Source: Pseudocercospora fijiensis CIRAD86 (Eukaryota; Ascomycota; Dothideomycetes; Mycosphaerellales; Mycosphaerellaceae). Taken from it: a DNA stretch of 64,000 nt. Numbering within the stretch: the stretch's first letter is position 1; every line of letters begins with the position of its first letter. Positions 25,036-59,800 of this stretch are shown one piece after another. The translations under genes and the position numbers were made by a program. The stretch is from NCBI RefSeq assembly GCF_000340215.1, contig NW_006921543.1, forward strand, positions 558,001-622,000, written 5' to 3'. The notes below the pieces were generated by a model. It made no database searches. It was given only the letters and a program-made list of their open reading frames with translations, and was not told the origin of the DNA.

Positions 25036-25353
25036 ATAAGCTCTAGCAAAAGCGAGCATTAAGAATTAGCGGAATCCTCTAAATCCGAAAACGTTCCTAA
25101 TCCTATTAACGAGGAAATTAGGCGGCGACTAGTTAATATAAGTAAGCCTCCTACGCCCTCTACGCTAGAGGCGCTCTATAATGTCCTTATAAAGATAATA
25201 GAGAAGTAAACTAAGCTTCTTCGTTAAAACAGGCGTCGCCCGCCTAAACTAGGAAGTAGTACAAACCCTTTATTCGAAGGGTAGAACGCTATAGCGTATA
25301 TAGAGCGTTTTAAGGAAGGCCTAATTAAATATAAGCTCGATAGGGAATCTAAC
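25036..25353 (+). pseudogene. Gypsy gag, 5' part (interrupted by E1)
   Basis: The start codon is probably ATA at 25036 (former ATG), giving M/I-SSSKSEH. The frame runs 106 codons through EELRRRLVNISKPPTP-like text, AYIERFKEGLIKYKLDRESN and into the 8-bp target site at 25346-25353. It continues in the same frame at 45203 after the hAT element. Confidence 0.75.
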
Positions 25354-26002: not shown

Positions 26003-26430
26003 TAGACCCCGTAGTAGTTCGGGTTGGTTTGGTTTGGTTTGCTAAGCCGAAACTCTAGTTTAGTTTGGGTTGGTTTGCTAAGCAACTATATAAGTAGCTA
26101 GTTCGAACCATATAATTTATCGGTTTTTAAGAAGTGTATAAATGTATACGTAGCTTCAAACAAGCCCTTTGTAAGACTTAGCAGTATAGCCGGTAGCGTA
26201 GCCGGCATTTTTAGTCCTTAGTACTTATAGAATTTTCGAATCCTACTTAGGCTACGTAGTTGTATAAAGGTACTTATATAACCTCAAATCTATAGACAAT
26301 CAGCTAAGGGCACTAACTAATCAAAAGCACACACATATATAAGGCATTATAGTTCAGTTCGGAAACTGCACTCCTTAGGTATAAATTTCATCCTTTCGTT
26401 TACGGTTTAATTCCCTAACTGCTTAGCAGA

Positions 26431-26970
26431 ATATCTTTATCTAGATCTAGGCAGAACTCATCGATTTCCCTAGAAGTCCTCCTCCTTAAGAAGTTTATGC
26501 ACTTTCCTACCGAACTATTCGATAATATTAAGTACTAGGATAGCTCCTCCCTCGGTATCGGTATAGTATATAAAAGAGCTATAAGGCAGCTCTATAGAAC
26601 GTTCTACTAGTTACTCGCTATACTAAGGCCGAATGCTAGTTCGTTCCTTAGAACTCTTAGTTATTTAGGAGATATAAAGGGTAGGGCAGGTAGTAACTTC
26701 GTATTGTATAAGGAGGTAGAGGCTGCTATAGAAGAGGCCTTTAATCTATAGAAGATAGTAAAAGATATAGAGGCAGCTATAGGTCTAGGTACCTAGTTGA
26801 ATTTCTAGTAGGTAGAGTATAAGGATATTTAGAGGGAGTATTAGGTAGAGTTGCGAAGGCAGGTATATAATATGCTCTAGAAAACAGGTATAGTGCCTAT
26901 AACTATAACTATTAGGCTCTTCAACCTTCCTTATTTTTCCCTGTTTTCTTTTTATAAAAATCTAAACTAA
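26431..26970 (+). pseudogene. Cargo gene C2 of E2, unknown 179-aa protein
   Basis: The same 540-bp gene as at 44223-44762 with an ATA start at 26431. The upstream 150 bp keep many CA dinucleotides, unlike most of the element. Confidence 0.6.
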
Positions 26971-27015
26971 TACAAATCAACCGGAATGTCTATCTTCTTT
27001 TAGTTCTTTAAAAAA

Positions 27016-27076
27016 CCTAGCAGCGTAGCTAGTAGCGTAGCCGGCAGCGTAGCCGGCAGCGTAGCCGGCCTTTTTA
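27016..27076. repeat. GCCGGC minisatellite arrays of the hAT elements (example)
   Basis: Tandem 12-mers of the type GTAGCCGGCAGC. Similar arrays of 1-5 units occur in E2 at about 26190, 27641, 28235, 29530, 30536, 31940, 32946, 34377 and 34936. They recur at the mirror sites in E1 (for example 38196-38247, 43502-43545, 44121-44178) and in E3 (57100, 57675, 59034, 60073, 61490, 61560). They are absent from the gypsy parts. Where gene structure is clear they lie in introns or spacers. Confidence 0.8.
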
Positions 27077-27294
27077 CTCCTTAGTACTAACGGGATTTTA
27101 GGAGACTTCTATTCCGTACGGCTAATAAAGTATACTATACTATATATATATACTTAGAGAGTATTCAGAGCGCGGTATATAGCGCCGTATAATAGCGGCT
27201 TATTTCGTATATAGAAAAGCTTGTAGACGATACTACGAACATCCTTCCTACTAGTATATCTATCCTATCTAGCACTATCTCGAATGTAGACATT

Positions 27295-27967
27295 CTAGCC
27301 TTTTAGGATCTAATCGAGTGCTTTGAAATCCTTATCTATAATCGTTATACGCTTCGCGTAGATAGCTATAAGGTTGACCGCTAAAATAGTATTAGTATAG
27401 TCCGAAAAGAGGTAGAAGAGAAATATACATTCGAAGATACGAACTAGGTAGGCTTCTATAGCCTCTTAAAGGGCGCCTATCGCGGAGGCTTAGAAGCGAA
27501 GGTCTATTCTATAATCCTAGGCAATTTCGCGAATAAGTCGTTAGAAAGGAGTTTTACGGATTAGGAGCTTAGAACTCTTCTAATACTACCGAATCTTACG
27601 GAGGGCTACGGCTAAAGAAGGATTAGTAAAAAGACAGTAAGAATACCGGCTACGCTGCCGGCTACGCTACCGGCTACGCTACCGGCTATAAATAGGACTT
27701 ACTTCCTAGGCGCTATCGACGCTTCGTACGATTACTACTAGTAGTAGAAGCGCTAGTTGTCGTCTTACGTAGAGCCTTGCCCGCCGTTGTCTTACGCGGA
27801 GCCTTACTCGCGACGCCCTTTCTAGTACCGGAGCTAGCGGTAGTAGTAGCAGCTATCTTACGTTAATGTACTATACTCGTTCCTTTATTTCCGATCTTAT
27901 TACGACCCGCAGAAGTAGTAGGTCCCTTCTTACGAGGCGTCGTAACTTAGTTAAGTAGATTCGCTAT
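27295..27967 (-). pseudogene. Histone H3-like gene H3-B of E2
   Basis: The inverted twin of 43226-43898, starting at 27967 and ending at 27295, with the same two introns and the minisatellite at about 27640-27690. Confidence 0.85.
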
Positions 27968-28494
27968 TATAAAAGTCGTCGAATTGAGGAAAAAAGTGCG
28001 TTACGAAGGTATACGAAGGCGCGCGCGGAGCGAGGGTGTTACGGAGGTAGTAGATATAGAGCGTAGAGGTATAGGTATCGATACGAAGGTTAAATATAGC
28101 GAGAGAGGTAGTATCGCGGTATCGCTAGGCAATAGAGTAAGCTTCGCGTAAGCCTATATTATAGTAACGTTAGAGTAAGGAAAGAAGGTAGGTACGGCTA
28201 AAAAAGGCAGGTACGGCAGACTTTAAAATATAGCCGGCATATATAGCCGGTATAGTAATAGGCGAAAGCCTCCTTTTAATAAATAGCCGGCGTAATAATA
28301 GTATCCTACTATAGTATAGATATTCTTTAGTAATGCCTTTACTAGCTATAGTAATCTTATAAGTAACCTAGGCCTATTGCTAGTAAATATAAGAAATATT
28401 AGGTAGGCTATACTAAACAAGCTAGTTATTTAGTAGAAAAAGGCCTACTACCGTCTCTATATGCCGGCTACGGGTACCGACTATCGCTCTAAAT

Positions 28495-29215
28495 TCAACT
28501 CCGCCCTATCTCGGAGGCTAAGGTACCGAGCGGAAACCCTATAGCTTATATTTACTCGGTTGTCGCGGAGCGCTTATAGGTAAGGTATTAGAAAAGAGTA
28601 TAAAAAGTACGAGAAGAGTATCCTAGGATATAGGTCGTAAGTGAATAAGAGTAGTACGCCTAGTTATTTATATAGTACGTTACTCTATACGACTAAGAGC
28701 CTATATTATCTTATACTTCGCTTATAAGACCTCGACTCTACTAGTATACTATCGATCTCCTCCTCGGTCGCTAATACGCTATCTTAATTCTTCTTCGAGT
28801 TGCCGGACTTAGTGCGCATCTATAGCTATGTAATAGCGCTACGTATTATAGAGAATCAACTCCGCCGTATCTCGAAGGCTAAGGTACCGAGCGGAAACCC
28901 GATAGCTTATATTTACTCGGTTGTCGCGGAGCGCTTATAGGTAAGGTATTAGAAAAGAGTATAAAAAGTACGAGAAGAGCATCCTAGGATATAGGTCGTA
29001 AGTAAATAAGAGTAGTATACCTAGTTATTTATATAGTACGTTACTCTATACGACTAAGAGCCTATATTATCTTATACTTCGCTTATAAGACCTCGACTCT
29101 ACTAGTATACTATCGATCTCCTCCTCGGTCGCTAATACGCTATCTTAATTCTTCTTCGAGTTGCCGGACTTAGTGCGTATCTATAGCTATGCAATAGCGC
29201 TACGCATTATAGAGA
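28495..29215 (-). repeat. Tandem duplication in E2 (about 360 bp x 2)
   Basis: Two adjacent copies of a block running from AACTCCGCC to ATTATAGAGAAT, differing at only a few sites. It is shared with E1, so the duplication predates the self-insertion. Confidence 0.8.
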
Positions 29216-29583
29216 ATTTCTCGTTAAAGTTTCTCTCTCGTAGGCTTACTATCTACCTCGTAGTATAGAGGATCAAAGTGCTAATACTAAAGAATCTCCT
29301 TATAGTTAGGATACTAGGGCTCCTTAGGACCTTTATGTTTTAGATCTAAATAGAGACGTATTATAAACGTTCTATCGCCCTTTCGCTTACTACCCGCTAG
29401 GTCGCGATATACGAAGAAACTAATCTAAATATAGCTCGTCTCTATAATAGCCGGGTAAATATAGAGCGCTAGGTTTCTACTTCGTACCTTAGATTTAGGG
29501 ACGGCGCGGAGATAAAATTAGAAATATAGCCGGTACCTATAGCCGGTAAAACGATGCGAAAATGGGCCTCCTCCTAGGTTAAT

Positions 29584-30391
29584 CTAACGACTAAATACAA
29601 TTTCTAACTAATCCGCTATAAACCGACGCCGAATTTTAGCTAGAAGCTATATATCTTTATTTTAAAGAGTAACCCGCTTCGTATAGATAGCAAGGAGGTT
29701 TAAAAGCTTAAGCTCGGTTACGAGAAATGCCTCCGTAGCTTCCTAAAAAGTACTAATCGCCTTAGCCGTAAATCGTATACTAGACCGAAAATCTAATATA
29801 ATTTCTCGGACGAGTCGCTAGAAGGGAGTCTTAGGGATTAAAAGCTCGGTCCCTCTTTTATTTTAGAAAAGCCGGATCTAGCGAAGGGTAATAGTACCTA
29901 GTTTAAAGCGCCGCTTCTTTGTCGTCGAGTCCTGCCTTGTTCCCTTTCTTTTAATAGAAAGATAACTTTTCTTCGCGATAGTCTTTGTCCGCCTACTCTT
30001 TTTAGCCTTCTCCTATCTACCTATAGCCTTCTTATTTTTCGGTACTATTTTCCGAGGAACCCCCTTCCTTTATATATACTATAGAGAGCCTTACTCTTCC
30101 GATATCTCGTTCTCGCTATAGTCTCCCTATGCTTAGCTTACTTTACCCTTGCCCTTTAGCCTCTAAAGATATTTATCTACGCGTTTAGGCGACGAGGGTA
30201 TATCGGTAGGACCTAGAAATTAATAAGTATATAATCGTAAGGAGACATTAATGCTTCTTACCTTCTAGAACAAATAGTCTTCTATTAAATCGCCTTATTA
30301 GGTTATCGTTAGATTCGAATAAAGGATAGTAGCTTAAGGAAGGGGAGGTAGCCGGCTTAGGAAGGCCCGAAGAGCCGAATCCTTAAGGTAT
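29584..30391 (-). pseudogene. Histone H3-like gene H3-A of E2
   Basis: The inverted twin of 40802-41609 with the same intron and the same RIP-type stops. It begins at 30391 (ATA) and ends at 29584. Confidence 0.83.
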
Positions 30392-30572
30392 ATTTATCTT
30401 TAAGAATATAGGGAAAGGGAAGAAGGAGAAGAAGAGCGAATAGAGAATTAGAAATAGTCCGCAGGTAAGCGGGGTCGGTTGCTATAGCAACTAGTCTATT
30501 TAGGTCCTAGGAATTCGAAACACATTTCGGATATATACCGGCTATATATGCCGGCTATATTACCTTATACGT

Positions 30573-33500
30573 AAACGCTTCGTCTCCTTAAAGCTGCTCT
30601 AAGCCTATATACGTTTCCGCTTCTCGACCCGGTATCGCCTTCTACCTCCGCCCTCCTCCTCTTTGTTATCGCTAATTAGGGTTTCGCTTAGACTAAATTT
30701 CGTATTCTCTTCGCGCTCCTAGGTTTCTTCGATCTTAAGGTTTTCTAATTCCTCGATTAACTCCTTTAGTATAATCTTTAGTAACCTACCTTAGCGATTC
30801 TAGTAGAGGAGATAGTATCGGAATACTATAATAGATTCGAAGGTAGTAGGCGAGTATATTCGATTAAAGCGGCCCTAGTAACGAGCGATACTAAAAGACC
30901 TCTTATAGCCTATACCTACGCTCGGGATAGCGAGGACGTCCCGAGCGACCGACGCTATCGTTAGAAACTTAGGCTCTAACCGCTACTATATAGCGAGAAT
31001 ATCGTCTCCGAATTCGTCTAGAAGACCGGTAAGATCTAGAGATTATTAGCCCTCTTTCCGAGCCTACGGGTTTATACTTACTCGCGCGCCGATAGAGATC
31101 GAACTCTTCTTTATTTACTTTAGTAGTTGCTTCCTCTTCTGCCTCTACTTCCTACCTACGAAATAGGTATAATGTCGGAGCCTTCTAAACCTTCTTTTTC
31201 TTTATAGGAGCTGTATTTAAACTAGTTTCTTTCCGACGCTCGTAAAACATCTTTTCTAGAATAGTCTAGTAATGCTTCGGCTATACCTCGTCCGCCTTCT
31301 ATTCCGGCCTCTACTAGTATATATCCTTTTCTACCGGGTTAAGTAAGTACGCAACGCTATAGATATCCCCGAACGAGTTAAAGGTAATACTGTAATATTT
31401 ATATAACTTAGTATAGGAGGTATCTATAGCTTTCGTTATAGCTACTTTCTAGGGAACGCTCTTCCTAGCTAGCTTAGCTACGGTTTCCTCGAGCTCGTTA
31501 AAGAGCTAGTTATAGTACGTAAAGATAAGGTAGATCGTCGGTCCTCGGATTCTTCTAATCGTAGTAGTAACCTTCGCGTAATGCTTACTAATATCGACGA
31601 GATACTCTACTTAGCGCTATTCGGCGGCGGTAAGGCCGAGCTACTTAATACCCTCGGAACTCTAATAGATCTCGAGAGCGGTACGTAAAGTATATCCCCT
31701 CGTAACTATATAGAAAGTCGAATCGAACCGGGTCTTAACGTCTTAGGTAAAACGGAGTAGGCGCTAAGGAGGCCGCTTTTACTATCGCTTATTCTATACG
31801 ATATTCTAGGTATCGGTTTTAGGGCGCTCGATTAGGTTCTTTTAAATAGCCTCGAATCGGTTATATCTCTATAAGCTCGAGTTCGTATATATTACTAGAC
31901 GACGAAGCTAGAGAAAAAGAGTTAGAACTATACTAGGTTGCCGGCTATAGGTGCCGGCTACGGATAAAAGTTATACCTTATATAAAACGAGAGCGAGGCT
32001 CTCTACCTTATCCCGTCTTATTGCTATAATAAGTTTCTCGACTTTCGACTTTGCTTTATCCTTATTTAGGATCTTCTATTAGTCGTCGTTTAATAGTACA
32101 ATTTTAAGCGTCTTAAAGAGGGCTCGGATCGCGATTTAAACTATATAAGCGAGGTAGGGAAACTTCTATAGGGATGCAACTAGCAACGACGTCGGCTCCG
32201 ATTCAATAGGGCTAGGGCTATTAATAGGCTCCTCTTTATCGTTATTATCGTACGTATTATCGTACGTATCCGGAATCGTAGCGAGCTTAATATTCGGAAG
32301 ATTAAGCTAGATTGTAGACCTTATAATCTCCTCTACGTACTCGACCCTATTAATATAATTAGTAATTTTAAAGACATATACGAGTAAATTGTATATATAA
32401 CGCCTTATACAATATTCGATTATTACTAGCGTTATCCGCAGTAATCGAGATTAGTTTCGTTATTACGCTAACCCTATCTATTACCGTATAGATAAGCTTC
32501 GCTATATCCTTACTAGTATAGGAACCTAGAATTTCAGGGAATCCGATTATAAGTTCCTAGAGTTTCTAATCCGAATTAATAAAGTATAGTATAATCGAGA
32601 GGAAAGAGGCTCTTATAGTCCGGCTTAACTAGCTATCGATAGTAATAGCTACTCGGCGAGTATTACGGAGGATCTCCCGAATGTCGTCTAACGTAGCCTC
32701 TTTATTCTTTTCGAATATAATACGCTAGGTTATCGCGCCGAGAAATAGGGGAGGGTAGTTTATAAGATATAGGTATATCTTCTATATAGACTTCCTTTCG
32801 TAGAAGTCTTCCGGAAGACCGTTTATAGCTAGCATTTCGTTTACTAGTTGCTTAAAGTCTTCGGGGGAGAAATCGGTAGCCTTTAATCCTAGAGCTTCCT
32901 TAAGCGTAGCCTATAATAATTAGCTAGATCTCTACGGTTGATTTAGGTAGCCGGAATCTATAGCCGGCAGCTATAGCCGGCAGCTATAGCCGGCAGCTAT
33001 AGCCGGTATTTTAGAAGATATACCTCTTTCTAGAACGCTATATCTATATTAACTCTCCTCTCTCCTTAAGATTCCCGATACTATTTAGAATAGAGATAGT
33101 TCGTAGGCGATAAGTTCCTATCCCCTAGTTTCGGGTATTTTAAGATTAAACCGTAGAAGTTATAGACAATTACTAGTTAACCTTTAAGTCGAGAAGTCGT
33201 ATAACGGTACAATGCCCCCTCTATAAAGAACTTCTAGAATATGTCCGTTCGCTCCTTACTCCCCTATCGCATCGAGTACTTCCGGAGTTTACACTCCTTC
33301 GAACGTAAGTATAAAGGGAACTATATCTTATAGACCTATTAATTGAACTGCTCTATATACTCGGGTTTCTAAAGATACGCCTAGCTAGCCTTTTCGAAGA
33401 TTTCCGGGTTAATACTCGATATTCTTATATCTCCGAACAACCTTCTACTTAGACTCCGTAAAGGTAAGGACTAGGTAGTAGTACCCTATAATGAATTCTT

Positions 33501-35274
33501 ACTACTAGGATTCGGAGAGGATAAATCTAGCCCTAATCGTAGTCTAGGACTCGATAGGCTCGAAGGTAAGTATACGACCTCCTCTCGACGTTATCGCAAT
33601 CTCGCTCGTATACTAGACTATTTCGACTATCGTCTCGTTATTACCCTTCCTAGTATAGCGCCTAGTATATATACAATGTCGGTCGGCATATTTTAAGGTT
33701 TCGTACGGTAAGGTAAGGACTTAGGAGTAGTAGATATATACTAGTAGCTATAGAGAAACACCCTTTCTTTTATAGCATCGTATCGTTAAGAATAGCTAGG
33801 TAGTAAATAGCTAGCTACCTTTTTTTTTTGTTTCCTAGCTACCTAATTACTAGATTTTTTTTCCTAGCTACCCTAGCTAGCCTAACTACTAGAATTTCTT
33901 TCCTAGCTACCCTAACTACCTAAATTTTGCCTTCTATACGGCGGCTCTTTCCTACTAACGGAACCGAGCTACTATACCTAACGAATCTAAGCTCGTTTTT
34001 AGTCTTAATCTATCCTCTTTCGGTATAAGACACTCGATAAGCAAATGCTTAGGCCGAGTCTAACTACGAAACCTAAGACTAACTAATAGCTCTATTAACT
34101 AATCCTAATCCTCGAACTCCTTCCGCTTCTTAGTAAAGACCTTAAAGAGCGCTCGAGCTTCTTCGGGTACCTACGGAGTAGTCGAGATAAAGCCGTATCG
34201 CTAAAATAGATAATCCTTCGGAGGCTTATATAGAGATTTAGAGAATTCTAACGCTAACCTATCCTACTAGTAGCTTAGATTCCGGATATAAGCCCTCTCT
34301 GCCTTAGTAAAGATTTTATATAGTAGTAGCACTCTGCCTTCGAGAAACGCTTTCTATTTAACTGTTAGTATCTACCGGCTACGAACGCCGGCTATATATA
34401 CCGAGTATAGAATAATTACCTATACCCCTTCTTCCTATAGTAACACTTCTACCGTCCCTAGATACCTAGCCCCGATCGTATTAATCGCAAGCTACTTTGC
34501 CTTTATAGACGTAAAGGCTTCGCTCTAATACTAATAAAGAAACTTCTACTCTATATCGAGGATATAAAGACGACTAGTCTCGATTCTAATCCTTACTAGC
34601 TTTTCGTAGTAGCTTTAACTATAATTTTCTAAATTAATAGGACTTATACCTTAGCCCTTTACTAGTATCTCGTCTCTTTAACTATACTCGATCTACTCCT
34701 AGCGCTTATCGTCTATAGCGTTAAGCCCTAAGACTATACCTATTACTAGATCGACGTATAGTATCTCCTCGCTTTTTTTAGTTCCTTTATTCGTAGTATT
34801 AAGCTCTATCGCGGTATCCTAAACTCTAGTATTATTGTTCTCGGCTATCTAAACATCTCCGTTACTATCGGTCGTATCGATAGAGGTAGCGACTATAGGT
34901 CTAAATGCTATTAGTTAACGTATTAAAGAAAAATATACCGGCTATAGCTACCGGCTACGGCTGCCGGCTATAGCTACTAGCTACGGCCGCTAGCTAGATT
35001 AACTTACGCTATTAGAACTTTACGCTCGAAAACTAGCCGTAATTCTTTCCTCCTCTTAGCCTTCTCTTAGGTTGTCTTCTTATTCTAACCTTTACTTTTT
35101 TCTATAGGCGCTAGCTATCGATAGAATGCCTTATTCCGCGCCTTTCTTCTCTTATCCTTAGCTCTTTTATCCTTATCTATCTTGTCCTTTCTCTCGCGGT
35201 CTCGTACGGAATTCTTCTTCGTAGAGTACTCCTCTTTAGTCTTACGCTTTTTAGTTAGACGCTTAGGCAAAACA
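30573..35274 (-). pseudogene. hAT transposase of E2 (RIP-inactivated)
   Basis: The inverted copy of the E1 transposase with the same exons, minisatellites and motifs; for example the dimerisation motif lies at about 30.82-30.99 kb. It differs mostly by single CA/TA or TG/TA changes and a few base differences. Confidence 0.83.
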
Positions 35275-35931
35275 AACTCGCGGTCTTTAGTTCTATCTTC
35301 TATTTAGCGCGCGGCGCGCTTCTCTCTTACTATTGTAAGGGAAAGGGGCGGGGGCGTAGCGTATAGTAGTTATTATCGGTATAGGTATAGAGGAAGAAGT
35401 TAAAAGTATAAGAATATCGCGAAGCCCTAATTGTTACCGCCTATGTAACGTTATATAGGTAAGCTTTCGCAACTACGGCAACTACGCCCCGGCAATAGCA
35501 ACTACGCCCTAGTAACGGCAACTACGCCCTAGTAACGGCAACCACGCCCTAGCAACGGTAATAAAGCGTAGTAAATACAACCTAGTAACTATTATAGCCG
35601 GCAATCGTAGCCGGCAGTCGAATAAGAGTGTCCTTATAGCAAAACTACGCCCTAGCAACGGTAACTACGCCCTAGCAACGGCAACTACGCCCTAGTAACG
35701 GCAAAAGAGCGTAGTAAATGTAACAGAGTTACTATTATAGCCGGCAATCGTAGCCGGCAGTCGAATAAGAGTGTCCTTATAGTAAAACTAATACAGTCTC
35801 TAGTTCAAACTAGGAATCTATATAGTTCGAAAAAACCAAACCGGAACTAGGGAGCTAGTTCGCCGCTAAGAAACCAAACTATATACGTTTAGTGGTTCGG
35901 AAACCGAACTACTACGGGGTCTACGCGAGTT

Positions 35932-38900
35932 TGTTTTGCCTAAGCGTCTAACTAAAAAGCGTAAGACTAAAGAGGAGTACTCTACGAAGAAGAATTCCGT
36001 ACGAGACCGCGAGAGAAAGGATAAGATAGATAAGGATAAAAGAGCTAAAGATAAGAGAAGAAAGGCGCGGAATAAGGTATTCTATCGATAGCTAGCGCCT
36101 ATAGAAAAAAGTAAAGGTTAGAATAAGAAGATAACCTAAGAGAAGGCTAAAAAGAGGAAAGAATTACGGCTAGTTTTCGAGCGTAAAGTTCTAGTAGCGT
36201 AAGTTAATCTAGCTAGCGGCCGTAGCTAGTAGCTATAGCCGGCAGCCGTAGCCGGCAGCTATAGCCGGTATATTTTTCTTTAATACGTTAACTAATAGCA
36301 TTTAGACCTATAGCCGCTACCTCTATCGATACGACCGATAGTAACGGAGATATTTAGATAGCCGAGAATAACAATACTAGAGTTTAGGATACCGCGATAG
36401 AGCTTAATACTACGAATAAAGGAACTAAAAAAAGCGAGGAGATACTATACGTCGATCTAGTAATAGGTATAGTCTTAGGGCCTAACGCTATAGACGATAA
36501 GCGCTAGGAGTAGATCGAGTATAGTTAAAGAGACGAGATACTAGTAAAGGGCTAAGGTATAAGTCCTATTAATCTAGAAAATTATAGTTCAAGCTACTAC
36601 GTTGAGCTAGTACAGGCACTAGAATCGAGACTAGTCGTCTTATATCCTCGATATAGAGTAGAAGTTTCTTTATTAGTATTAGAGCGAAGCCTTTACGTCT
36701 ATAAAGGTAAAGTAGCTTGCGATTAATGCGATCGGGGCTAGGTATCTAGGGACGGCAGAAGTGTTACTATAGGAGGAAGGGGTATAGGTAATTATTCTAT
36801 ACTCGGTATATATAGCCGGCGTTCGTAGCCGGTAGATACTAATAGTTAAATAGAAAGCGTTTCTTAAAGGTAGAGTGCTACTGCTATATAAAATCTTTAC
36901 TAAGGTAGAGAGGGCTTATATCTAGAATCTAAGCTACTAGTAGGATAGGTTAGCGTTAGAATTCTCTAAATCTCTATATAAGCCTCCGAAGGATTACCTA
37001 TTTTAGCGATACGGCTTTATCTCGACTACTCCGTAGGTACCCGAAGAAGCTCGAGCGCTCTTTAAGGTCTTTACTAAGAAGCGGAAGGAGTTCGAGGATT
37101 AGGATTAGTTAATAGAGCTATTAGTTAGTCTTAGATTTCGTAGTTAGACTCGGCCTAAGTATTTGCTTATCGAGTATCTTATACCGAAAGAGGATAGATT
37201 AAGACTAAAAACGAGCTTAGATTCGTTAGGTATAGTAGCTCGGTTCCGTTAGTAGGAGAGAGCCGCCGTATAGAAGGCAAAATTCAGGTAGTTAGGGTAG
37301 CTAGGAAAGAAATTCTAGTAGTTAGGCTAGCTAGGGTAGCTAGGAAAAAAAATCTAGTAGTTAGGTAGCTAGGAAACAAAAAAAAAGGTAGCTAGCTATT
37401 TACTACCTAGCTATTCCTAACGATACGATACTATAAAAGAAAGGGTATTTCTCTATAGCTACTAGTATATATCTACTACTCCTAAGTCCTTACCTTACCG
37501 TACGAAACCTTAAAACATACCGACCGATATTGTATATATACTAGGCGCTATACTAGGAAGGGTAATAACGAGACGATAGTCGAAATAGTCTAGTATACGA
37601 GCGAGATTACGACAACGTCGAGAGGAGGTTGTATACTTACCTTCGAGCCTATCGAGTCCTAGACTACGATTAGGGCTAGATTTATCCTCTCCGAATCCTA
37701 GTAGTAGGAATTTATTATAGGGTACTACTACCTAGTCCTTACCTTTATAGAGTCTAAGTAGAAGGTTATTCGGAGATATAAGAATATCGAGTATTAATCC
37801 GGAAATCTTCGAAAAGGCTAGCTAGGCGTATCTTTAGAAACCCGAGTATATAGAGCAGTTTAATTAATAGGTCTATAAGATATAGTTCCCTTTATACTTA
37901 CGTTCGAAGGAGTATAAACTCCGGAAGTACTCGATACGATAGGGGAGTAAGGAGCGAACGGACATATTCTAGAAGTTCTTTATAGAGGAGGCATTATACC
38001 GTTATACGACTTCTCGACTTAAAGGTTAACTAGTAATTGTCTATAACTTCTACGGTTTAATCTTAAAATACCCGAAACTAGGGGATAGGAACTTATCGCC
38101 TACGAACTATCTCTATTCTAAATAGTATCGGGAATCTTAAAGAGAGAGGAGAGTTAATATAGATATAGCGTTCTAGAAAGAGGTATATCTTCTAAAATAC
38201 CGGCTATAGCTGCCGGCTATAGCTACCGGCTATAGATTCCGGCTACCTAAATCAACCGTAGAGATCTAGCTAATTATTATAGGCTACGCTTAAGGAAGCT
38301 CTAGGATTAAAGGCTACCGATTTCTCTCCCGAAGACTTTAAGTAACTAGTAAACGAAATGCTAGCTATAAACGGTCTTCCGGAAGACTTCTACGAAAGGG
38401 AGTCTATATAGAAGATATACCTATATCTTATAAACTACCCTCCCCTATTTCTCGGCGCGATAACCTAGCGTATTATATTCGAAAAGAACAAAGAGGCTGT
38501 ATTAGACGACATTCGGGAGATCCTCCGTAATACTCGCCGAGTAGCTATTACTATCGATAGCTAGTTAAGCCGGACTATAAGAGCCTCCTTCCTCTCGATT
38601 ATACTATACTTTATTAATTCGGATTAGAAACTCTAGGAACTTATAATCGGATTCCCTAAAATTCTAGGTTCCTATACTAGTAAGGATATAGCGAAGCTTA
38701 TCTATACGGTAATAGATAGGGTTAGCGTAATAACGAAACTAATCTCGATTACTACGGACAACGCTAATAATAATCGAATATTGTATAAGGCGTTATATAT
38801 ACAATTCACTCGTATATATCTTTAAAATTACTAATTATATCGATAGGGTCGAGTACGTAGAGGAGATTATAAGGTCTATAATCTAGCTTAATCTTCCGAA

Positions 38901-40633
38901 TGTTAAGCTCGCTACGATTCCGGATACGTACGATAATACGTACGATAATAACGATAAAGAGGAGCCTATTAATAGCCCTAGCCCTATTAAATCGGAGCCG
39001 ACGTCGTTGCTAGTTATATCCCTATAGAAGTTTCCCTACCTCGCTTATATAGTTTAAATCGCGATCCGAGCCCTCTTCAAAACGCTTAAAATTGTACTAT
39101 TAAACGACGACTAATAGAAGATCCTAAATAAGGATAAAGCAAAGTCGAAAGTCGAGAAACTTATTATAGTAATAAGACGGGATAAGGTAGAGAGCCTCGC
39201 TCTCGTTTTATATAAGGTATAACTTTTGTCCGTAGCCGGCACCTATAGCCGGCAACCTAGTATAGTTCTAACTCTTTTTCTCTAGCTTCGTCGTCTAGTA
39301 ATATATACGAACTCGAGCTTATAGAGATATAACCGATTCGAGGCTATTTAAAAGAACCTAATCGAGCGCCCTAAAACCGATACCTAGAATATCGTATAGA
39401 ATAAGCGATAGCAAAAGCGGCCTCCTTAGCGCCTACTCCGTTTTACCTAAGACGTTAAGACCCGGTTCGATTCGACTTTCTATATAGTTACGAGGGGATA
39501 TACTTTATATACCGCTCTCGAGATCTATTAGAGTTCCGAGGGTATTAAGTAGCTCGGCCTTACCGCTACCGAATAGCGCTAAGCAGAGTATCTCGTCGAT
39601 ATTAGTAAGCATTACGCGAAGGTTACTACTACGATTAGAAGAACCCGAGGACCGACGATCTACCTTATCTTTACGTACTATAACTAGCTCTTTAACGAGC
39701 TCGAGGAAACCGTAGCTAAGCTAGCTAAGAAGAGCGTTCCCTAGAAAATAGCTATAACGAAAGCTATAGACACCTCCTATACTAAGTTGTATAAATATTA
39801 TAGTACTACCTTTAACTCGTTCGGGGATATCTATAGCGTTACGTACTTACTTAACCCGGTAGAAAAGGATATATACTAGTAGAGGCCGGAATAGAAGGCG
39901 GACGAGGTATAGCCGAAGCATTACTAGACTATTCTAGAAAAGATATTCTACGAGCGTCGGAAAGAAACTAGTCTAAATATAGCTCCTATAAAGAAAAAGA
40001 AAGTTTAGAAGGCTCCGATATTATACCTATTTCGTAGGTAGGAAGTAGAGGCAGAAGAGGAAGCAACTACTAAAGTAAATAAAAAAGAGTTCGATCTCTA
40101 TCGGCGCGCGAGTAAGTATAAACCCGTAGGCTCGGAAAGAGGGCTAATAATCTCTAGATCTTACCGGTCTTCTAGACGAATTCGGAGACGATATTCTCGC
40201 TATATAGCAGCGGTTAGAGCCTAAGTTTCTAACGATAGCGTCGGTCGCTCGGGACGTCCTCGCTATCCCGAGCGTAGGTATAGGCTATAAGAGGTCTTTT
40301 AGTATCGCTCGTTACTAGGGCCGCTTTAATCGAATATACTCGCCTACTACCTTCGAATCTATTATAGTATTCCGATACTATCTCCTCTACTAGAATCGCT
40401 AAGGTAGGTTACTAAAGATTATACTAAAGGAGTTGATCGAGGAATTAGAAAACCTTAAGATCGAAGAAACCTAGGAGCGCGAAGAGAATGCGAAATTTAG
40501 TCTAAGCGAAACCCTAATTAGCGATAACGAAGAGGAGGAGGGCGGAAGTAGAAGGCGATACCAGGTCGAGAAGCGGAAACGTATATAGGCTTAGAGCAGC
40601 TTTAAGGAGACGAAGCGTTTACGTATAAGGTAA
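35932..40633 (+). pseudogene. hAT transposase of E1 (RIP-inactivated)
   Basis: The first exon is very basic (LPKRLTKKRKTKEEY, ERKDKIDKDKRAKDKRRK). The RNase-H-like core lies at 38.3-38.8 kb: DIREILRNTRRVAITIDS then L-S-R-T-I-R-A-S-F, then KLISITTDNANNNRILYKAL, with conserved Asp in both blocks. The C-terminal hAT dimerisation motif at 40.2-40.4 kb reads KFLTIASVARDVLAIPSVGI then FNRIYSPTTFESIIVFRYY. An acidic then basic tail ends at TAA 40631-40633. Introns are likely; one near 38.16-38.27 kb holds a GCCGGC minisatellite. Over 50 stops are of RIP type. The ancestral product probably exceeded 1000 residues. Confidence 0.85.
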
Positions 40634-40801
40634 TATAGCCGGCATATATAGCCGATATATATCCGAAATGTGTTTCGAATTCCTAGGACCTAAATAGACT
40701 AGTTGCTATAGCAACCGACCCCGCTTACCTGCGGACTATTTCTAATTCTCTATTCGCTCTTCTTCTCCTTCTTCCCTTTCCCTATATTCTTAAAGATAAA
40801 T

Positions 40802-41609
40802 ATACCTTAAGGATTCGGCTCTTCGGGCCTTCCTAAGCCGGCTACCTCCCCTTCCTTAAGCTACTATCCTTTATTCGAATCTAACGATAACCTAATAAGG
40901 CGGTTTAATAGAAGACTATTTATTCTAGAAGGTAAGAAGCATTAATGTCTCCTTACGATTATATGCTTATTAATTTCTAGGTCCTACCGATATACCCTCG
41001 TCGCCTAAACGCGTAGATAAATATCTTTAAAGGCTAAAGGGCAAGGGTAAAGTAAGCTAAGTATAGGGAGACCGTAGCGAGAACGAGATATCGGAAGAGT
41101 AAGGCTCTCCGTAGTATATACGAAGGAAGGGGGTTCCTCGGAAAATAGTACCGAAAAATAAGAAGGCTATAGATAGATAGGAGAAGGCTAAAAAGAGTAG
41201 GCGGATAAAGACTATCGCGAAGAAAAGTTATCTTTCTATTAAAAGAAAGGGAACAAGGTAGGACTCGACGATAAAGAAGCGGCGCTTTAAACTAGGTACT
41301 ATTACCCTTCGCTAGATCCGGCTTTTCTAAAACAAAAGAGGGACCGAGCTTTTAATCCCTAAGACTCCCTTCTAGCGACTCGTCCGAGAAATTACATTAG
41401 ATTTTCGGTCTAGTATACGATTTACGGCTAAGGCGATTAGTACTCTTTAGGAAGCTACGGAGGCATTTCTCGTAACCGAGCTTAAGCTTTTAAACCTCCT
41501 TACTATCTATACGAAGCGGGTTACTCTTTAAAATAAAGATATATAGCTTCTAGCTAAAATTCGGCGTCGGTTTATAGCGGATTAGTTAGAAATTGTATTT
41601 AGTCGTTAG
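40802..41609 (+). pseudogene. Histone H3-like gene H3-A of E1, with long N-terminal extension
   Basis: The start is ATA at 40802 (ATG in the E3 copy). Exon 1 runs to 40931; a 49-bp intron (GTAAGA...TTTCTAG) ends at 40980; exon 2 runs to about 41609, for some 250 aa. The extension includes PSSPKRVDKYL and RRKGVPRKIVPKNKKA, a Lys/Arg-rich tail. The H3 fold follows from RRFKLGTITLR: TELLIPKTPF-x-RLVREITLDF, ISTL-x-EATEAFLV, LLTIYTKRVTL and KDI-x-LLAKIRRRF. Loop 1 has canonical H3 length, unlike typical centromeric H3; the alpha-N region is two residues longer. A role in nucleosomes is inferred from the fold. It is now dead, with about ten RIP stops. Confidence 0.85.
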
Positions 41610-41639
41610 ATTAACCTAGGAGGAGGCCCATTTTCGCAT

Positions 41640-42720
41640 CGTTTTACCGGCTATAGGTACCGGCTATATTTCTAATTTTATCTCCGCGCCGTCCCTAAAT
41701 CTAAGGTACGAAGTAGAAACCTAGCGCTCTATATTTACCCGGCTATTATAGAGACGAGCTATATTTAGATTAGTTTCTTCGTATATCGCGACCTAGCGGG
41801 TAGTAAGCGAAAGGGCGATAGAACGTTTATAATACGTCTCTATTTAGATCTAAAACATAAAGGTCCTAAGGAGCCCTAGTATCCTAACTATAAGGAGATT
41901 CTTTAGTATTAGCACTTTGATCCTCTATACTACGAGGTAGATAGTAAGCCTACGAGAGAGAAACTTTAACGAGAAATTCTCTATAATGCGTAGCGCTATT
42001 ATATAGCTATAGATACGTACTAAGTCCGGCAACTCGAAGAAGAATTAAGATAGCGTATTAGCGACCGAGGAGGAGATCGATAGTATACTAGTAGAGTCGA
42101 GGTCTTATAAGCGAAGTATAAGATAATATAGGCTCTTAGTCGTATAGAGTAACGTACTATATAAATAACTAGGCGTACTACTCTTATTCACTTACGACCT
42201 ATATCCTAGGATGCTCTTCTCGTACTTTTTATACTCTTTTCGAATACCTTACCTATAAGCGCTCCGCGACAACCGAGTAAATATAAGCTATCGGGTTTCC
42301 GCTCGGTACCTTAGCCTTCGAGATACGGCGGAGTTGATTCTCTATAATACGTAGCGCTATTATATAGCTATAGATACGTACTAAGTCCGGCAACTCGAAG
42401 AAGAATTAAGATAGCGTATTAGCGACCGAGGAGGAGATCGATAGTATACTAGTAGAGTCGAGGTCTTATAAGCGAAGTATAAGATAATATAGGCTCTTAG
42501 TCGTATAGAGTAACGTACTATATAAATAACTAGGCGTACTACTCTTATTCACTTACGACCTATATCCTAGGATACTCTTCTCGTACTTTTTATACTCTTT
42601 TCTAATACCTTACCTATAAGCGCTCCGCGACAACCGAGTGAATATAAGCTATAGGGTTTCCGCTCGGTACCTTAGCCTCCGAGATAGGGCGGAGTTGAAT
42701 TTAGAGCGATAGTCGGTACC
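41640..42720 (+). other. Unknown cargo region of E1 with a 360-bp tandem duplication
   Basis: The first part looks coding on the plus strand (KGDRTFIIRLYLDLKHKGPK, ILQYQHFDPLYYEVDSKPTR). From about 41972 a roughly 360-bp block is repeated at once at about 42340, each copy starting AATTCTCTATAAT/GATTCTCTATAAT and ending in GGCGGAGTTGA. The same tandem pair is in E2 at about 28495-29215. In E3 the equivalent interval is different sequence, so this is variable cargo. No family is recognised. Confidence 0.5.
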
Positions 42721-43225
42721 CGTAGCCGGTATATAGAGACGGTAGTAGGCCTTTTTCTGCTAAATAACTAGCTTGTTTAGTATAGCCTACCTAATATTTC
42801 TTATATTTACTAGCAATAGGCCTAGGTTACTTATAAGATTACTATAGCTAGTAAAGGCATTACTAAAGAATATCTATACTATAGTAGGATACTATTATTA
42901 CGCCGGCTATTTATTAAAAGGAGGCTTTCGCCTATTACTATACCGGCTATATATACCGGCTATATTTCAAAGTCTGCCGTACCTGCCTTTTTTAGCCGTA
43001 CCTGCCTTCTTTCTTTACTCTAACGTTACTATAATATAGGCTTGCGCGAAGCTTACTCTATTGCCTAGCGATACCGCGACACTACCTCTCTCGCTATATT
43101 TAACCTTCGTATCGATACCTATACCTCTACGCTCTATATCTACTATCTCCGCAATACCCTCGCTCCGCGCGCGCCTTCGTATACCTTCGCAACGTACTTT
43201 TTTCCTCAATTCGACGACTTTTATA

Positions 43226-43898
43226 ATAGCGAATCTACTTAACTAAGTTACGACGCCTCGTAAGAAGGGACCTACTACTTCTACGGGTCGTAATAAGATC
43301 GGAAATAAAGGAACGAGTATAGTACATTAACGCAAGATAGCTACTACTACTACCGCTAGCTCCGGTACTAGAAAGGGCGTCGCGAGTAAGGCTCCGCGTA
43401 AGACAACGGCGGGCAAGGCTCTACGTAAGACGATAACTAGCGCTTCTACTACTAGTAGCAATCGTACGAAGCGTCGATAGCGCCTAGGAAGTAAGTCCTA
43501 TTTATAGCCGGCAGCGTAGCCGGTAGCGTAGCCGGTAGCGTAGCCGGCATTCTTACTGTCTTTTTACTAATCCTTCTTTAGCCGTAACCCTCCGTAAGAT
43601 TCGGTAGTATTAGAAGAGTTCTAAGCTCCTAATCCGCAAAACTCCTTTCTAACGACTTATTCGCGAAATTGCCTAGGATTATAGAATAGACCTTCGCTTC
43701 TAAGCCTCCGCGATAGGCGCCCTTTAAGAGGCTATAGAAGCCTACCTAGTTCGTATCTTCGAATATATATTTCTCTTCTACCTCTTTTCGGACTATACTA
43801 ATACTATTTTAGCGGTTAACCTTATAGCTATCTACGCGAAGCGTATAACGATTATAGATAAGGATTTCAAAGCACTCGATTAGATCCTAAAAGGCTAG
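43226..43898 (+). pseudogene. Histone H3-like gene H3-B of E1 (two introns)
   Basis: The start is ATA at 43226. Exons are 43226-43490, 43582-43764 and 43813-43898, giving 177 aa. The tail reads TTPRKKGPTTSTGRNK, later KAPRKTTAGKALRK, like an H3 N-terminus. Intron 1 (43491-43581: GTAAGT, TTACTAAT, TTTAG) contains a GCCGGC minisatellite. Splicing restores RLG-TVTLRKIR, the H3 core entry. The fold has KSSKLLIRKTPF, LIREIA-x-DYRIDLRF, SAIGAL-x-EAIEAYLVRIFE; intron 2 (branch ACTAATAC, TTTTAG) has lost its donor G to RIP. It resumes NLIAIYAKRITIIDKD. Spliced loop lengths are canonical H3. Confidence 0.87.
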
Positions 43899-44222
43899 AA
43901 TGTCTATATTCGAGATAGTACTAGATAGGATAGATATACTAGTAGGAAGGATGTTCGTAGTATCGTCTGCAAGCTTTTCTATATACGAAATAAGCCGCTG
44001 TTATACGGCGCTATATACCGCGCTCTAAATACTCTCTAAGTATATATATATAGTATAGTATGCTTTATTAGCCGTACGGAATAGAAGTCTCCTAAAATCC
44101 CGTTAGTACTAAGGAGTAAAAAGGCCGGCTACGCTGCCGGCTACGCTGCCGGCTACGCTGCTAGCTACGCTGCTAGGTTTTTCAAAGAACTAAAAGAAGA
44201 TAGACATTCCGGTTAATTTGTA

Positions 44223-44762
44223 TTAGTTTAGATTTTTATAAAAAGAAAACAGGGAAAAATAAGGAAGGTTGAAGAGCCTAATAGTTATAGTTATAGGCAC
44301 TATCCCTGTTTTCTAGAGCATATTATACACCTGCCTTTGCAACTCTACCTAATACTCCCTCTAAATATCCTTATACTCTACCTACTAGAAATTTAACTAG
44401 GTACCTAGACCTGTAGCTGCCTCTATATCTTTTACTATCTTCTATAGGTTAAAGGCCTCTTCTATAGCAGCTTCTACCTCTTTATACAATACGAAGTTAC
44501 TACCTACCCTACCCTTTATATCTCCTAAATAACTAAGAGTTCTAAGGAACGAACTAGCATTCGGCCTTAGTATAGCGAGTAACTAGTAGAACTTTCTATA
44601 GAGCTGCCTTATAGCTCTTTTATATACTATACCGATACCGAGGGAGGAGCTATCCTAGTACTTAATATTGTCGAATAGTTCGGTAGGAAAGTATATAAAC
44701 TTCTTAAGGAGGAGGACTTCTAGGGAAATCGATAAGTTCTGCCTAGATCTAGATAAAGACAT
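44223..44762 (-). pseudogene. Cargo gene C2 of E1, unknown 179-aa protein
   Basis: The ATG is intact at 44762 (ATA in the E2 copy) and the TAA is at 44225-44223, 540 bp with no intron. Text includes LSRSRQNSSISLEVLLLKKF, LPTELFD-like and IGIVYKRAIRQLYRTF, then RPNASSFLRTLSYLGDIKGR and NFVLYKEVEAAIEEAFNL, ending hydrophobic (LFNLPYFSLFSFYK). About nine internal stops are all TAG. It is helical by composition; no family is recognised. It is convergent with H3-B and closest to the 3' terminal repeat. Confidence 0.6.
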
Positions 44763-45202
44763 TCTACTAAGCAGTTAGGGAATTGAACCGTAAACGAAAG
44801 GATAAAATTCATACCTAAGGAGTGCAGTTTCCGAACTAAACTATAATGCCTTGTATATATATATATATACTTTTGATTAGTTAGTGCCCTTAGCTAATTG
44901 TCTATAGATTTGAGGTTATATAAGTACCTTTATATAACTACGTAGCCTAAGTAGGATTCGAAAATTCTATAAGTACTAAGGACTAAAAATACCGGCCACG
45001 CTGCCGGCTATACTGCTAAGTCTTATAAAGGGCTTGCTTAAAGCTACGTATACATTCGTACACTTCTTAAAAACCGATAAATTATATAGTTCGAACTAGC
45101 TACTTATATAGTTGCTTAGCAAACCAACCCAAACCAAACTAGAGTTTCGGCTTAGCAAACCAAACCAAACCAACCCGAACTACTACGGGGTCTAAATCTA
45201 AC

Positions 45203-56176: not shown

Positions 56177-56825
56177 TAGACCCCGAAGTAGTTTAGGTTA
56201 CGAACTATAAAACGTATATAGTTTAGTTTCTTAGCGGCAAACTAGCTCCCTAGTTCCGGGTTAGTTTTTCTAAACTATATAGATTCCTAGTTCGAACTAG
56301 AGACTATATCGGTTTTATTACAAATATACTCTTATCCGACTGCTAGCTACTATTGCTAGCTATAGTAGTAACTAGGTTATATTTAGGTCGCTCGCGGATG
56401 CCCTAACTATAGTAATAGGTCGCAATAGCGAGAGACTATACTAGCCCTATTATAAGCATACTCCTACCCGACTGCCGGCTGCTATTACCGGCTGTTGTAG
56501 TAACTAGATTATATTTACCCCGCCCGCGATTGCCTTAATAATAGCGATTGCCGTTACTAGGTCGTAGTTACCGTTACTAGGGCGTAGTTGCTATTACTAG
56601 GGCGTAGTTGCCGTAGTTACAAAAGCTTACCTAGATAACTTTACGTAGGCGGCAACAATTAGGGCTTCGCGATATTGTTATACCTTTTATCTTCTTCCTC
56701 TTCTATATCTATAATAACTATCGACGCTACGCCCCCTCCCCCCCTTCCCCCTTCGCCCCCTCCTTCTTAAAATAGTAAGATAGAAGCGCGCCGCGCGCTA
56801 AATAGAAGATAGTAAAGAACGCGAG

Positions 56826-59800
56826 TTTGTTTTACCTAAGCATCTAAAAAAAAGCGTAAGACTAAAGAGGAGTACTCTATAAATAAAAATTCTATACGAG
56901 ATCGCGAGAGGAAGGACAATATAGACGAGGATAAAAGAGCTAAGAATAAGAGAAGGAAGGCGCGTAACGAGGCATTCTATCGATAGCTAGCGCCTATTAA
57001 AAAGAGCGAAGGTTAGAAGTAGAAGATAAGCTAAGAGAAGGCTTAGAGGAGGAAAGAATTGCGGCTAGTTTTCGAGGAGCAATTTCTACTAGCGTAAGTT
57101 AATATAGCCGGTAGCTATAGCCGGCATATATAGCCGGTAGCGTAGCCGGCATCCTTTCTCGAAATTAGTAACTAATACTATTTAGACCTATTCCTACTAC
57201 CTCTATCGATACGATCGATAATAACGGAGATATTTAGATAGCCGAGAGCAGTAATGCTAGACTTTAGAATGCTACGTAAGAGCTTGTTACTACGAATAAC
57301 GGGACTAAAAAAAGTAAGGAGATACTATACGTCGATCTGTTTATAGGCGTAGTCTTAGGGCCTAACGCTATAGACGATAAGGGCTAGGAGTAGATTAAGT
57401 ATAGCGAAAGAGACGAGGCGCTAGTAAAGGTCTAAGGCATAACTCCTATTAATCTAGATAATTATCGTTAAAGCTACTACGAAAAGCTTGCAAAGATTAG
57501 AATTAAGGCTAGTCGTCTTTATATCCTCGATATAGAGTAGAGATTTCTTTATAAGTATTAGAGGAACGCCTTTACGAGTATAAAGGAAAAATATCTTACG
57601 ATTAATAATATAGAGGCTAGATATCTAAGGGCGGCGAAGGTTTTACTCGAGGTAGAGGACGTAAAAGTAAGTGTTTTATAGCCGGTAGCTATAGCCGGCA
57701 TTCGTAGCTAGTAGATACTAATAGTCGAATAGAAAGCGATTTCCGAGGGAAGAGTACCGTTACTATATAAAATCTTTACTCCGGTAGAGAGGGCTTGCAT
57801 CCGGAATCTAAGCTGCTAGTAGGATAGTTTCCCGTTAGATTTCTCTCGACCTCTATATAAGGTTCCTAGTAATTACCTACTTTAGCAATATAGCTTTATC
57901 TCGACTACTCCGTAGTCGCCTAGCGAAGCTCGTTCGCTCTTTAAGGTCTTTACTAAGAAGCGGAGGGAGTTCGAGAAGCAGGATTAGTTAAAGGAGGTAT
58001 TAGTTAGATATAGGTTTCGTAGTTAGACTTAGCCCGAGTATTTGCTTATCGAGTGTCTTACGCTAAAGGAGGAAGGATTAAGACTAAAAACAAGCTCGAT
58101 TGCTATAGTAGCTCTATTCCGTTAGTAGGAGAGAACCGTCGTATAAAAGGGAAAAATTCGGGTAGCTAGGGTAGCTAGGAAAAAAATTAGGTAGTTAGGG
58201 TAGCTAGGGTAGCTAGGAAACAAAAAAAAGGTAGCTATATACTTACTACCTAGCTGTTCCTAACGATAAGATACTATAAAAGAAAGGGTGTTTCCCTATA
58301 ACTACTAGTATATATCTACTACTCTTAACCTCTCTATATAAAACTTTGAAATATACCGAACGATATTATATATATACTAGGCGCTATACTAGGAAGAGTA
58401 ACTACGAGACGATAGGCGAGATAGTCTAGTATACGAACTAGATCGCAACGACGTCGAGACGAGGCTATATACTTACCTTCGAGCCTATTAAGTACTAGAC
58501 GACGATTAAGGCTACATTTGTCCTCTTTGCAACCTAGTAGAGGATTTCGTTATAGGGCACTACCGTCCGGTCCTTACCTTTATAGAGTCTAAGAAGAAGG
58601 TTATTCGGAGAGATACGAATATTAAGTATTAACCTAGATATCTTCGAAAAGGCTAGCTAGGCGTATCTTTAGAAACCCGAGTATACCGAGCAGTTTAATT
58701 AATAGGTCTATAAGATATAGTTCCCTTTTTACTTACGTTTAAGGGAGTATAAACTACGGAAGTACTCGATACGATAGGGTAGTAAGGATCGAACGGACAT
58801 ATTCTAGAAATTTTTTGCGAAGGGGGCATTATACCGTAGTACGAGTTCGTATCTAAAAGGTTAGCTAGTAATTGTCTATAAATTCTATAGTTCGATCTTA
58901 AAACACCCGAAGCTAGGGGATAGGAATTTATCGCCTACTAGCTATCTCCGTTCTAAACGGTATCGGGAATCTTAAGGGGAGGTAAGGGTTAAGGTAGATA
59001 CGGCGTTCGAGAAAGAGGTACGTCTTCTAAATATACCGGCCGTAGCTACCGGCTATAGCTACCGGCTATAGCTACCGGCTATAGCTAGAGGGTCCTTAAC
59101 TTAACCCTATAAATACTACTAATTTTTATAGGCTACGTAGAAGGAAGCTTAAGTATTAAAGGCTTCCGATTTCTCCCTCGAAGATTTTAAGCAACTAGTA
59201 AACGAAATGTTAGCTATAAACAGTCTCCCGGAAGACTTCTTCGAAAGGGATTCTATATAGAAGACATACCTATGTCTTATAAGGTACCTCCCTACATTTC
59301 TAGGCGCGACTGCGTAGCGTACTACATTCGAGAAGAATAAAGAGGCTACGTTAGACGATATTCGGGAGATTCTCCGTAATACTCGCCGAGTAGCTACTAC
59401 TATCGATAGCTAGTTAAGCCGGACTATAAGGGCCTCCTTCCTCTCTATTATACTATACCCTATTAATTCGGATTAGAAACTCTAGGAAATGCTAATCGGA
59501 TTCCTAGAAATTCTAGGTTCCTATACCGGTTAGGATATAGCGAAGCTTATCTATGCGGCAATAGATAGGGTTAGCGTAACTACGAAACCAATCTCGATTG
59601 CTATAGATAACGCTAGCAATAATCGAATATTATATAGAGCGTTATATATACTATCTATTTGTATTTGTCTTCGAAATAACTAATAGTACCGATAGGGTCG
59701 ACTATATAGACGAGATTATAAGGTCTATAATCTAGCTTAATTTGCCTAATATTAAGCTTACTACGATTTCGGATACGTACGACCTAGAAGATAATAAGGA

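Follow-up and report, generated by a model that had tools for sequence, protein, structure and literature searches.

The closest described counterpart of the locus analysed here is a family of hAT transposons with histone H3-like sequences, which is found in Pseudocercospora fijiensis and also in five relatives (Dhillon et al. 2019, PMC6710886). The published description gives 784 H3-like copies in 471 elements, and these occupy 3 Mb, or 4.1% of the genome. Full-length elements are 9.5-9.9 kb long, with 20-bp terminal inverted repeats (TIRs) and 8-bp target site duplications (TSDs), and the host H3 gene is located on scaffold 6. Each element contains one or two H3 copies, and each of the full-length subset contains two. 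The second copy has a 16-residue insertion, and all copies are altered by repeat-induced point mutation (RIP). The same account reports exon-exon junctions without introns, and reads the H3 sequences as captured from a spliced host H3 transcript and the insertion as a mutation. We analysed a 64,000-nucleotide stretch of the P. fijiensis CIRAD86 genome (contig NW_006921543.1, positions 558,001 to 622,000 of the forward strand), here called the window, which contains three related hAT-type elements, termed E1, E2, and E3, of a family with two H3-type genes, termed H3-A and H3-B.

When compared by the published description, E1, E2, and E3 appear to represent the family of PMC6710886. E1 and E2 share with that family their length, termini, TSD, paired H3-like genes, 16-residue insertion, and RIP. 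Also matching are the intact host H3 (on contig 6 here, and on scaffold 6 in the published assembly) and the number of copies, with 772 first-look histone candidates genome-wide in our analysis compared with 784 published copies. The H3-carrying hAT itself is already published, and finding it again is a rediscovery. The point added here is a correction of the published capture history for H3-B, which, unlike in the published account, is seen to have two intron-like stretches. In addition, no mention of the nesting of E1 in E2, or of the shorter E3 subtype, was found in the available passages of PMC6710886.

A hAT element with an H3-like gene, H3L, is also described from Pyrenophora tritici-repentis (Manning et al. 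2013, PMC3538342). Like the elements described here, it has TIRs and contains an H3-like gene that is neither a typical H3 nor a CenH3 and has an altered tail. It also has a hAT dimerisation domain, of which the present elements show a candidate region below the curated cut-off. By its published description, the P. tritici-repentis element differs in being 5.6 kb long, in having one H3L and a central open reading frame, and in having largely intact copies and expressed sequence tags. No similarity between the P. fijiensis and P. tritici-repentis hAT sequences is reported in PMC6710886, and the question of a chromatin effect of element-borne H3 was already raised in PMC3538342. These two papers contradict a statement in an earlier, sequence-only reading of the window, according to which no described DNA transposon with H3 cargo was known. 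In Stagonospora nodorum, R25 (Hane and Oliver 2010, PMC3017866) is likewise a RIPped repeat with weak similarity to DNA transposons and to histone H3. It differs in that it was re-classified as derived from a (presumably) endogenous gene region, and the available passages of PMC3017866 describe no element structure. Finally, fungal DNA transposons with TET/JBP dioxygenases (PMC12730594) resemble the present family, as far as they are described there, in having cargo tied to DNA or chromatin marks, and they differ in the cargo and its function.

Three related elements with paired H3 genes

E1 is a complete element of 9,921 bp on the reverse strand (26003..35923) that is inserted into E2, whose two pieces lie on the forward strand. 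The left piece of E2 (25354..26002) has a terminal repeat at 25354 and 143-bp tandem repeats, and the main piece (35932..45194) ends with the right terminal repeat at 45175-45194. Without E1, E2 is 9,912 bp long, and its outer span is 25354-45194. Both elements have exact 8-bp TSDs, which read CGCGAGTT on the two sides of E1 (25995..26002 and 35924-35931) and AATCTAAC directly before and after E2 (25346..25353 and 45195-45202). E3 is a separate and divergent copy on the forward strand (56177..64000) that exits the window, with its true right end at 64775. It is 8.6 kb in length, which is shorter than E1 and E2, and it has the TSD GAAGTAAA; 8-bp target duplications are thus present in all three elements.

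The 20-bp terminal repeat, TAGACCCCGTAGTAGTTCGG, is found at 25354 and 26003 on the forward strand, at 35904 (35904-35923, the other end of E1) and 45175 on the reverse strand, and at 56177 on the forward strand. One mismatch to this sequence occurs at 25354, and the ends of E3 carry three (at 56177) and one. A search of the window for TAGACCCCGTAGTAGTTCGG gave six matches, including one at 17829, and shuffled sequences gave none. E1 and E2 are 97.5% identical across 9.3 kb, and the left piece of E2 recurs inverted at 35274-35923, as the left terminal part of E1. E3 is approximately 84% identical to E2 over 35923-40654, which is the transposase part. The match at 17829 is a further terminal-repeat-like sequence on the forward strand, with two mismatches, and a short stretch at 17328-17442 is 78-79% similar to the terminal region of the elements; both probably belong to an old remnant left by a related element.

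The assignment of these elements to the hAT type is based on a dimerisation region that scores below cut-off, together with the termini and the length of the TSD. In the E2 transposase, a putative C-terminal dimerisation region (40190..40309, forward strand) matches Pfam PF05699 with E=0.0058, which is below the curated cut-off. In pieces of 117 residues, PF05699 was seen in all eight copies that were tried (E-values of 2.8e-4 to 6.2e-3, every one below the Pfam curated cut-off), whereas the published account, as far as its available passages go, did not find this domain (PMC6710886). Scans of 3 kb gave weaker matches (E=0.077 for E2 and 0.093 for E3), and a three-frame Pfam scan of the whole of E2 gave no hAT model at E<=1. 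A match to Glycyl-tRNA synthetase in E3 (E=0.0029) is below the cut-off of its own model, and was taken as chance.

When E2 was scanned in three frames, with stops read through, Pfam Histone was detected with E=8.5e-37 in one frame, with two stretches passing, and it was the sole Pfam family at E<=1. The best stretch (41196-41564) corresponds to H3-A, which in E2 is located at 41124..41585 on the forward strand, with its core from 41280, and which contains stops. In each of the three elements, H3-A is located downstream of the transposase region, and H3-B comes after it. The H3-A region of E1 (29593..30093, reverse strand) is 97.6% identical in blastn to 41100-41600 of E2. In E3, H3-A is found at 62066..62497 on the forward strand, and reads RRFKPGTITLREIR..., YTKRVTL, and KDIQLL. 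The H3-B region of E1 (27243..27963, reverse strand) is 98.1% identical in blastn to 43230-43950 of E2, and the H3-B core of E3 begins at 64120, past the edge of the window.

The sequence-only reading had proposed a hAT family with two H3 genes inside matching terminal repeats, present in three copies, and had suggested a profile search for the histone fold. The termini, the 8-bp TSDs, and the Pfam Histone matches agree with the proposed family, and the fold was found by such a search in both genes. The H3-A reading that it quoted for E3 was located at the position given above. Its three copies are real as far as both genes of E1 and E2 and the H3-A of E3 are concerned, and the H3-B core of E3 falls outside the window. 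E1 and E2, which it had listed among the three copies, both exist, but one sits inside the other, and E2 is split in two.

Upstream of H3-A in E2 and E3 is an ARTRYRK stretch that resembles the amino terminus of H3. It was rejected as a candidate; the stretch is out of frame, and an ATG precedes none of its 30 matches, which include one copy counted twice (L003 is the same as L031).

Intron-like stretches in H3-B

In E2, H3-B is read as three exons on the forward strand, separated by two putative introns. The tail exon (43256..43490), which was placed by reading and by the position of the donor, reads ...SKAPRKTTAGKALRKT... and is of the APRK type. In the right frame, this exon has no Pfam histone match, and gives only PAF at E=1.1. 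Exon 2 (43582..43764) comprises the first part of the H3 core, and matches Pfam Histone with E=2.6e-20 for the piece alone. Exon 3 (43813..43890) is the end of the core and reads VNLIAIYAKRITIIDKDF...; its 28 residues are too few for a judgement by Pfam. The tail and the core occupy different reading frames, and the 91 nt between them in E2 are not a multiple of three. Because of this difference in frame, the tail and core would form one protein only if spliced, as the sequence-only reading had anticipated for H3-B; the APRK tail was identified by reading.

Putative intron 1 (43491..43581, 91 nt) has the form GTAAGT ... ACTAAT ... TTTAG. In the genome that was searched (73.9 Mb in 30 contigs), the pattern GTAAGT...ACTAATCCTTCTTTAG has 281 matches, and the reversed pattern has none. 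The length of this stretch is 67-116 nt across the 35 copies that were measured, and the GTAAGT donor is present in 30 of 32 E2-type copies and in four of five E3-type copies.

Putative intron 2 (43765..43812, 48 nt) is located in codon 106 in phase 1, ends with ACTAAT...TTTTAG, and matches the published 16-residue insertion. Its donor reads AT in E2. Because a G-to-A change after T is a RIP change, the original first base is predicted to have been G, and this prediction was then matched by genome sites: in exact context, 94 have GTATRT versus 198 with ATATRT. These are the unselected counts; loci L034-L063 were picked by an exact GTATAT pattern, and so their donor counts are biased. The GT donor is also kept in E1 (genome C12:585411-585435, which is 27411-27435 in the window). 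When three mismatches were allowed, the context of intron 2 was found at 367 genome sites, versus none in the control. If this stretch were translated, it would presumably interrupt helix alpha-2 of H3.

Comparison with other H3 genes also bears on intron 2. Thirteen relatives were fetched from 120 listed of the 791 matches in a search with H3-B, mostly from the top of the list. Seven of these have an insertion at the codon 106 site that starts at G and rejoins at DTNL, like a retained phase-1 intron. Four others diverge right after the G, and two have no such feature. Because the query contained the insert, relatives that bear it may rank high. In the host H3 gene, introns are found only close to R8 and within G44 (phase 1), and the host exon runs uninterrupted through the codon 106 position. 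A published survey of 24 fungal genomes counts 31 intron sites in their H3 genes (Yun and Nishida, PMC3029354), and by rough arithmetic from this number, the chance that one intron coincides with some known site is on the order of 8%.

The splice signals and reading frames suggest that the two inserts in H3-B are most likely introns. Because H3-B has two intron-like stretches, one of them where the host H3 has none, it probably did not arise as a retrocopy of the host transcript; a processed copy is expected to be intron-free, and H3-B appears not to be.

The motif TAGCCGGCAGC recurs inside the elements (36236-45010 in E2, with equivalents in E1 and E3), and has 40 matches in the window with at most one mismatch, versus 1.4 expected. 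It is also found in H3-B intron 1, and the number of repeats varies between copies. Between H3-A and H3-B is a 361-bp direct duplication with 97-98% identity, at 41976-42698 in E2 and 28495-29217 in E1.

RIP and copies across the genome

E1, E2, and E3 have all been mutated by RIP. The TpA/ApT index is 1.84-1.88 in the three elements versus 0.57 in the gene-rich first 16 kb of the window, and the (CpA+TpG)/(ApC+GpT) index is 0.19-0.22 versus 1.33. The GC content is approximately 0.40 in the elements versus 0.53 in the first 16 kb. From the 772 candidates, 150 were scored, and all 150 were over the cut-off. Stop codons occur in 148 of these matches; the exceptions are the host H3, with an intact exon on contig 6, and the host CENP-A, on contig 5. 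The copies seen are inactive, and no such H3 protein can be made from them today.

The two genes recur as an ordered pair. At least 57 of the 94 H3-B sites that have an exact GT donor are preceded on their strand by a scored H3-A, at a distance of 1.8-2.6 kb; this is a lower bound, because only 150 of the 772 candidates were scored. At none of these 94 sites is a scored H3-A found within 4 kb downstream.

Histone type of H3-A and H3-B

Both folds are of the H3 type. All of the listed PDB matches (60 listed of 176 for H3-A of E3, and of 175 in a second search) are named H3 types, and none is CENP-A. The residues of an H3-type core are largely retained in both genes. The traits of CENP-A, a longer loop 1 and RW, are present in the CENP-A proteins used for comparison (host and Pseudopithomyces), and are absent from H3-A and H3-B, which have a loop of H3 length and RF (PF in H3-B of E3). 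An ARTKQTARKS tail was not found in frame in the readings of either gene, and the start codons of both were not located.

In a tree of 37 sequences (LG+G4), H3-A (support 100) and H3-B (99) join each other (84), apart from the host H3. Because RIP and long branches inflate such grouping, conclusions about origin do not rest on the tree. A Tyr that replaces a conserved His of H3 in both genes was considered as a shared derived change and dropped, because RIP itself turns CAT into TAT.

Selection, origin, and rival explanations

Constraint was assessed by using only transversions, which are not made by RIP, that are fixed between E2-type and E3-type copies (28 versus 5 for H3-A, and 32 versus 5 for H3-B). 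Columns were left out unless at least 80% were of one class within each group. Also left out were L003, as identical to L031, and hits shorter than 300 bases for H3-A or 450 bases for H3-B, the latter being L061 and nine loci with the start of H3-B only. Fixed transversions at codon positions 1/2/3 number 4/1/5 in the H3-A core, 5/5/6 in H3-B exon 2, and 2/1/8 in exon 3. The corresponding numbers are 3/3/4 in the H3-A tail and 7/10/3 in the whole H3-B tail, the APRK part of which has 0/1/2. Third positions account for 19 of 37 in the H3-A core, H3-B exon 2, and exon 3 taken together (one-sided p=0.018), and for 21 of 40 when the APRK part is added to these three (p=0.010). These counts give weak evidence of constraint at the level of the protein, and this evidence rests largely on exon 3.

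As a whole, the observations are quite probably best explained by a hAT-type family killed by RIP, which carried a transposase, an H3-A gene with an intron-free core, and an H3-B gene with two introns and a non-processed origin. The element moved by means of a transposase that makes 8-bp target duplications, as its scars show, and carried both H3 genes as the recurring pair that is seen in the genome, and RIP inactivated the copies. H3-B would most likely have been expressed from a spliced mRNA, judging from its splice signals and frames, and its source would be an H3 gene that contained introns, as opposed to a processed host transcript. A live element probably made H3 proteins, which might have become part of nucleosomes as H3 variants with altered tails. 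In H3-A, the site that corresponds to host intron 2, in G44, is uninterrupted, and this gene may still have arisen from a processed host H3 transcript.

Several results, however, weigh against this explanation. A search for homologues of the transposase with its read-through central region gave no match at E<=0.001 among 702 candidates. The donor of intron 2 is AT in all five E3-type copies seen, and the 48-nt insertion is open and a multiple of three, so that by frame alone it may be coding. Because intron 1 of H3-B is offset by 3 nt from host intron 2, a common origin of the H3-B and host introns is not established. The constraint signal disappears when every tail is added (26 of 67 in third positions, p=0.20). 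Neither the H3-A core (5 of 10, p=0.21) nor exon 2 (6 of 16, p=0.45) shows it on its own, and exon 3 is the only part that does (8 of 11, p=0.009). Also, the putative H3-B introns (43491-43581 and 43765-43812) are more conserved between the E2 and E3 subfamilies than the H3-B exons, with transversions at 1 of 138 sites versus 27 of 256 (Fisher p=1.1e-4). This high conservation is contrary to the expectation for neutral introns.

The published explanation is passive transduplication, in which a single capture brought a processed transcript or a retrocopy of the host H3 into the element, where it was duplicated and hitch-hiked without a function, with the 16-residue insertion as a coding mutation. 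The lack of an intron at G44 in H3-A agrees with this idea, as do the exon-exon junctions without introns described in PMC6710886, and the absence of an in-frame stop from the insertion, itself a multiple of three, in the copies read. H3-B also has an AIGALQEA-like reading, as in fungal H3, and one of the H3-A copies (L019) has AIGAL. However, the tail and core of H3-B are out of frame unless the GTAAGT...TTTAG stretch is removed. Signals of a donor, a branch-like site, and an acceptor are present in the insertion, and the variation in its donor falls precisely on sites of RIP. From the pattern of divergence, moreover, intron 2 behaves like intron 1 and unlike the flanking exons. We regard passive transduplication as rather improbable. 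An explanation by chance or artefact, namely that AT-rich DNA yields histone-like translations or that the assembly contains a duplication, might be entertained because RIPped DNA is AT-rich and because E1 and E2 are nearly identical and in opposite orientation. The Pfam E-value for E2, the 148 over-cut-off copies with stops among 150 scored, and the separate exact TSDs of E1 and E2 already refute this explanation, which has almost no chance of being correct.

Alternatively, the H3 genes might have been functional variants, such that element histones without the ARTKQTARKS tail replaced host H3 at the element's own copies and weakened silencing based on H3K9, or marked targets. The recurrence of two H3 genes as a pair, including in each full-length element of the subset described in PMC6710886, is consistent with such a role. 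So are the absence of an in-frame ARTKQTARKS tail from both genes, the largely kept core residues, and the weak bias toward third positions. However, the constraint statistic is weak and is absent in the tails, all of the sequences are blurred by RIP, and the full tails depend on start codons that were not located. We consider this role doubtful. A more specific proposal is that two H3 genes were retained by a hAT lineage as functional components, under selection on their protein sequence until RIP ended the lineage, with one of them bearing introns and not derived from a processed host transcript, and that they formed a transposon-encoded histone system of non-standard tails, which possibly countered H3K9-based silencing; this proposal is tentative, and seems to us unlikely. 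A function as a chromatin tool is a possibility that has little direct support.

Other repeats in the window

A 283-bp direct repeat with 95% identity is found at 23942-24224, 1.1 kb to the left of E2, and at 55804-56086, 0.1 kb to the left of E3. Between E2 and E3 is a RIPped retrotransposon (48658-50433, forward strand), which is probably of the long terminal repeat type. In one frame, it has a reverse transcriptase domain (E=3.4e-9) and RT_RNaseH (E=4.9e-6) above cut-off, and a second RNase H model and an integrase zinc-binding domain below their cut-offs.

Conclusions

If it is true that H3-B contains introns that are absent from the host H3 gene, then this part of the cargo would not be a retrocopy of a host housekeeping gene, and the H3 genes may be components of the element that are older and had a function. 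The question of whether H3 genes are passengers or tools of fungal DNA transposons would thereby become one that could be answered from intact relatives.

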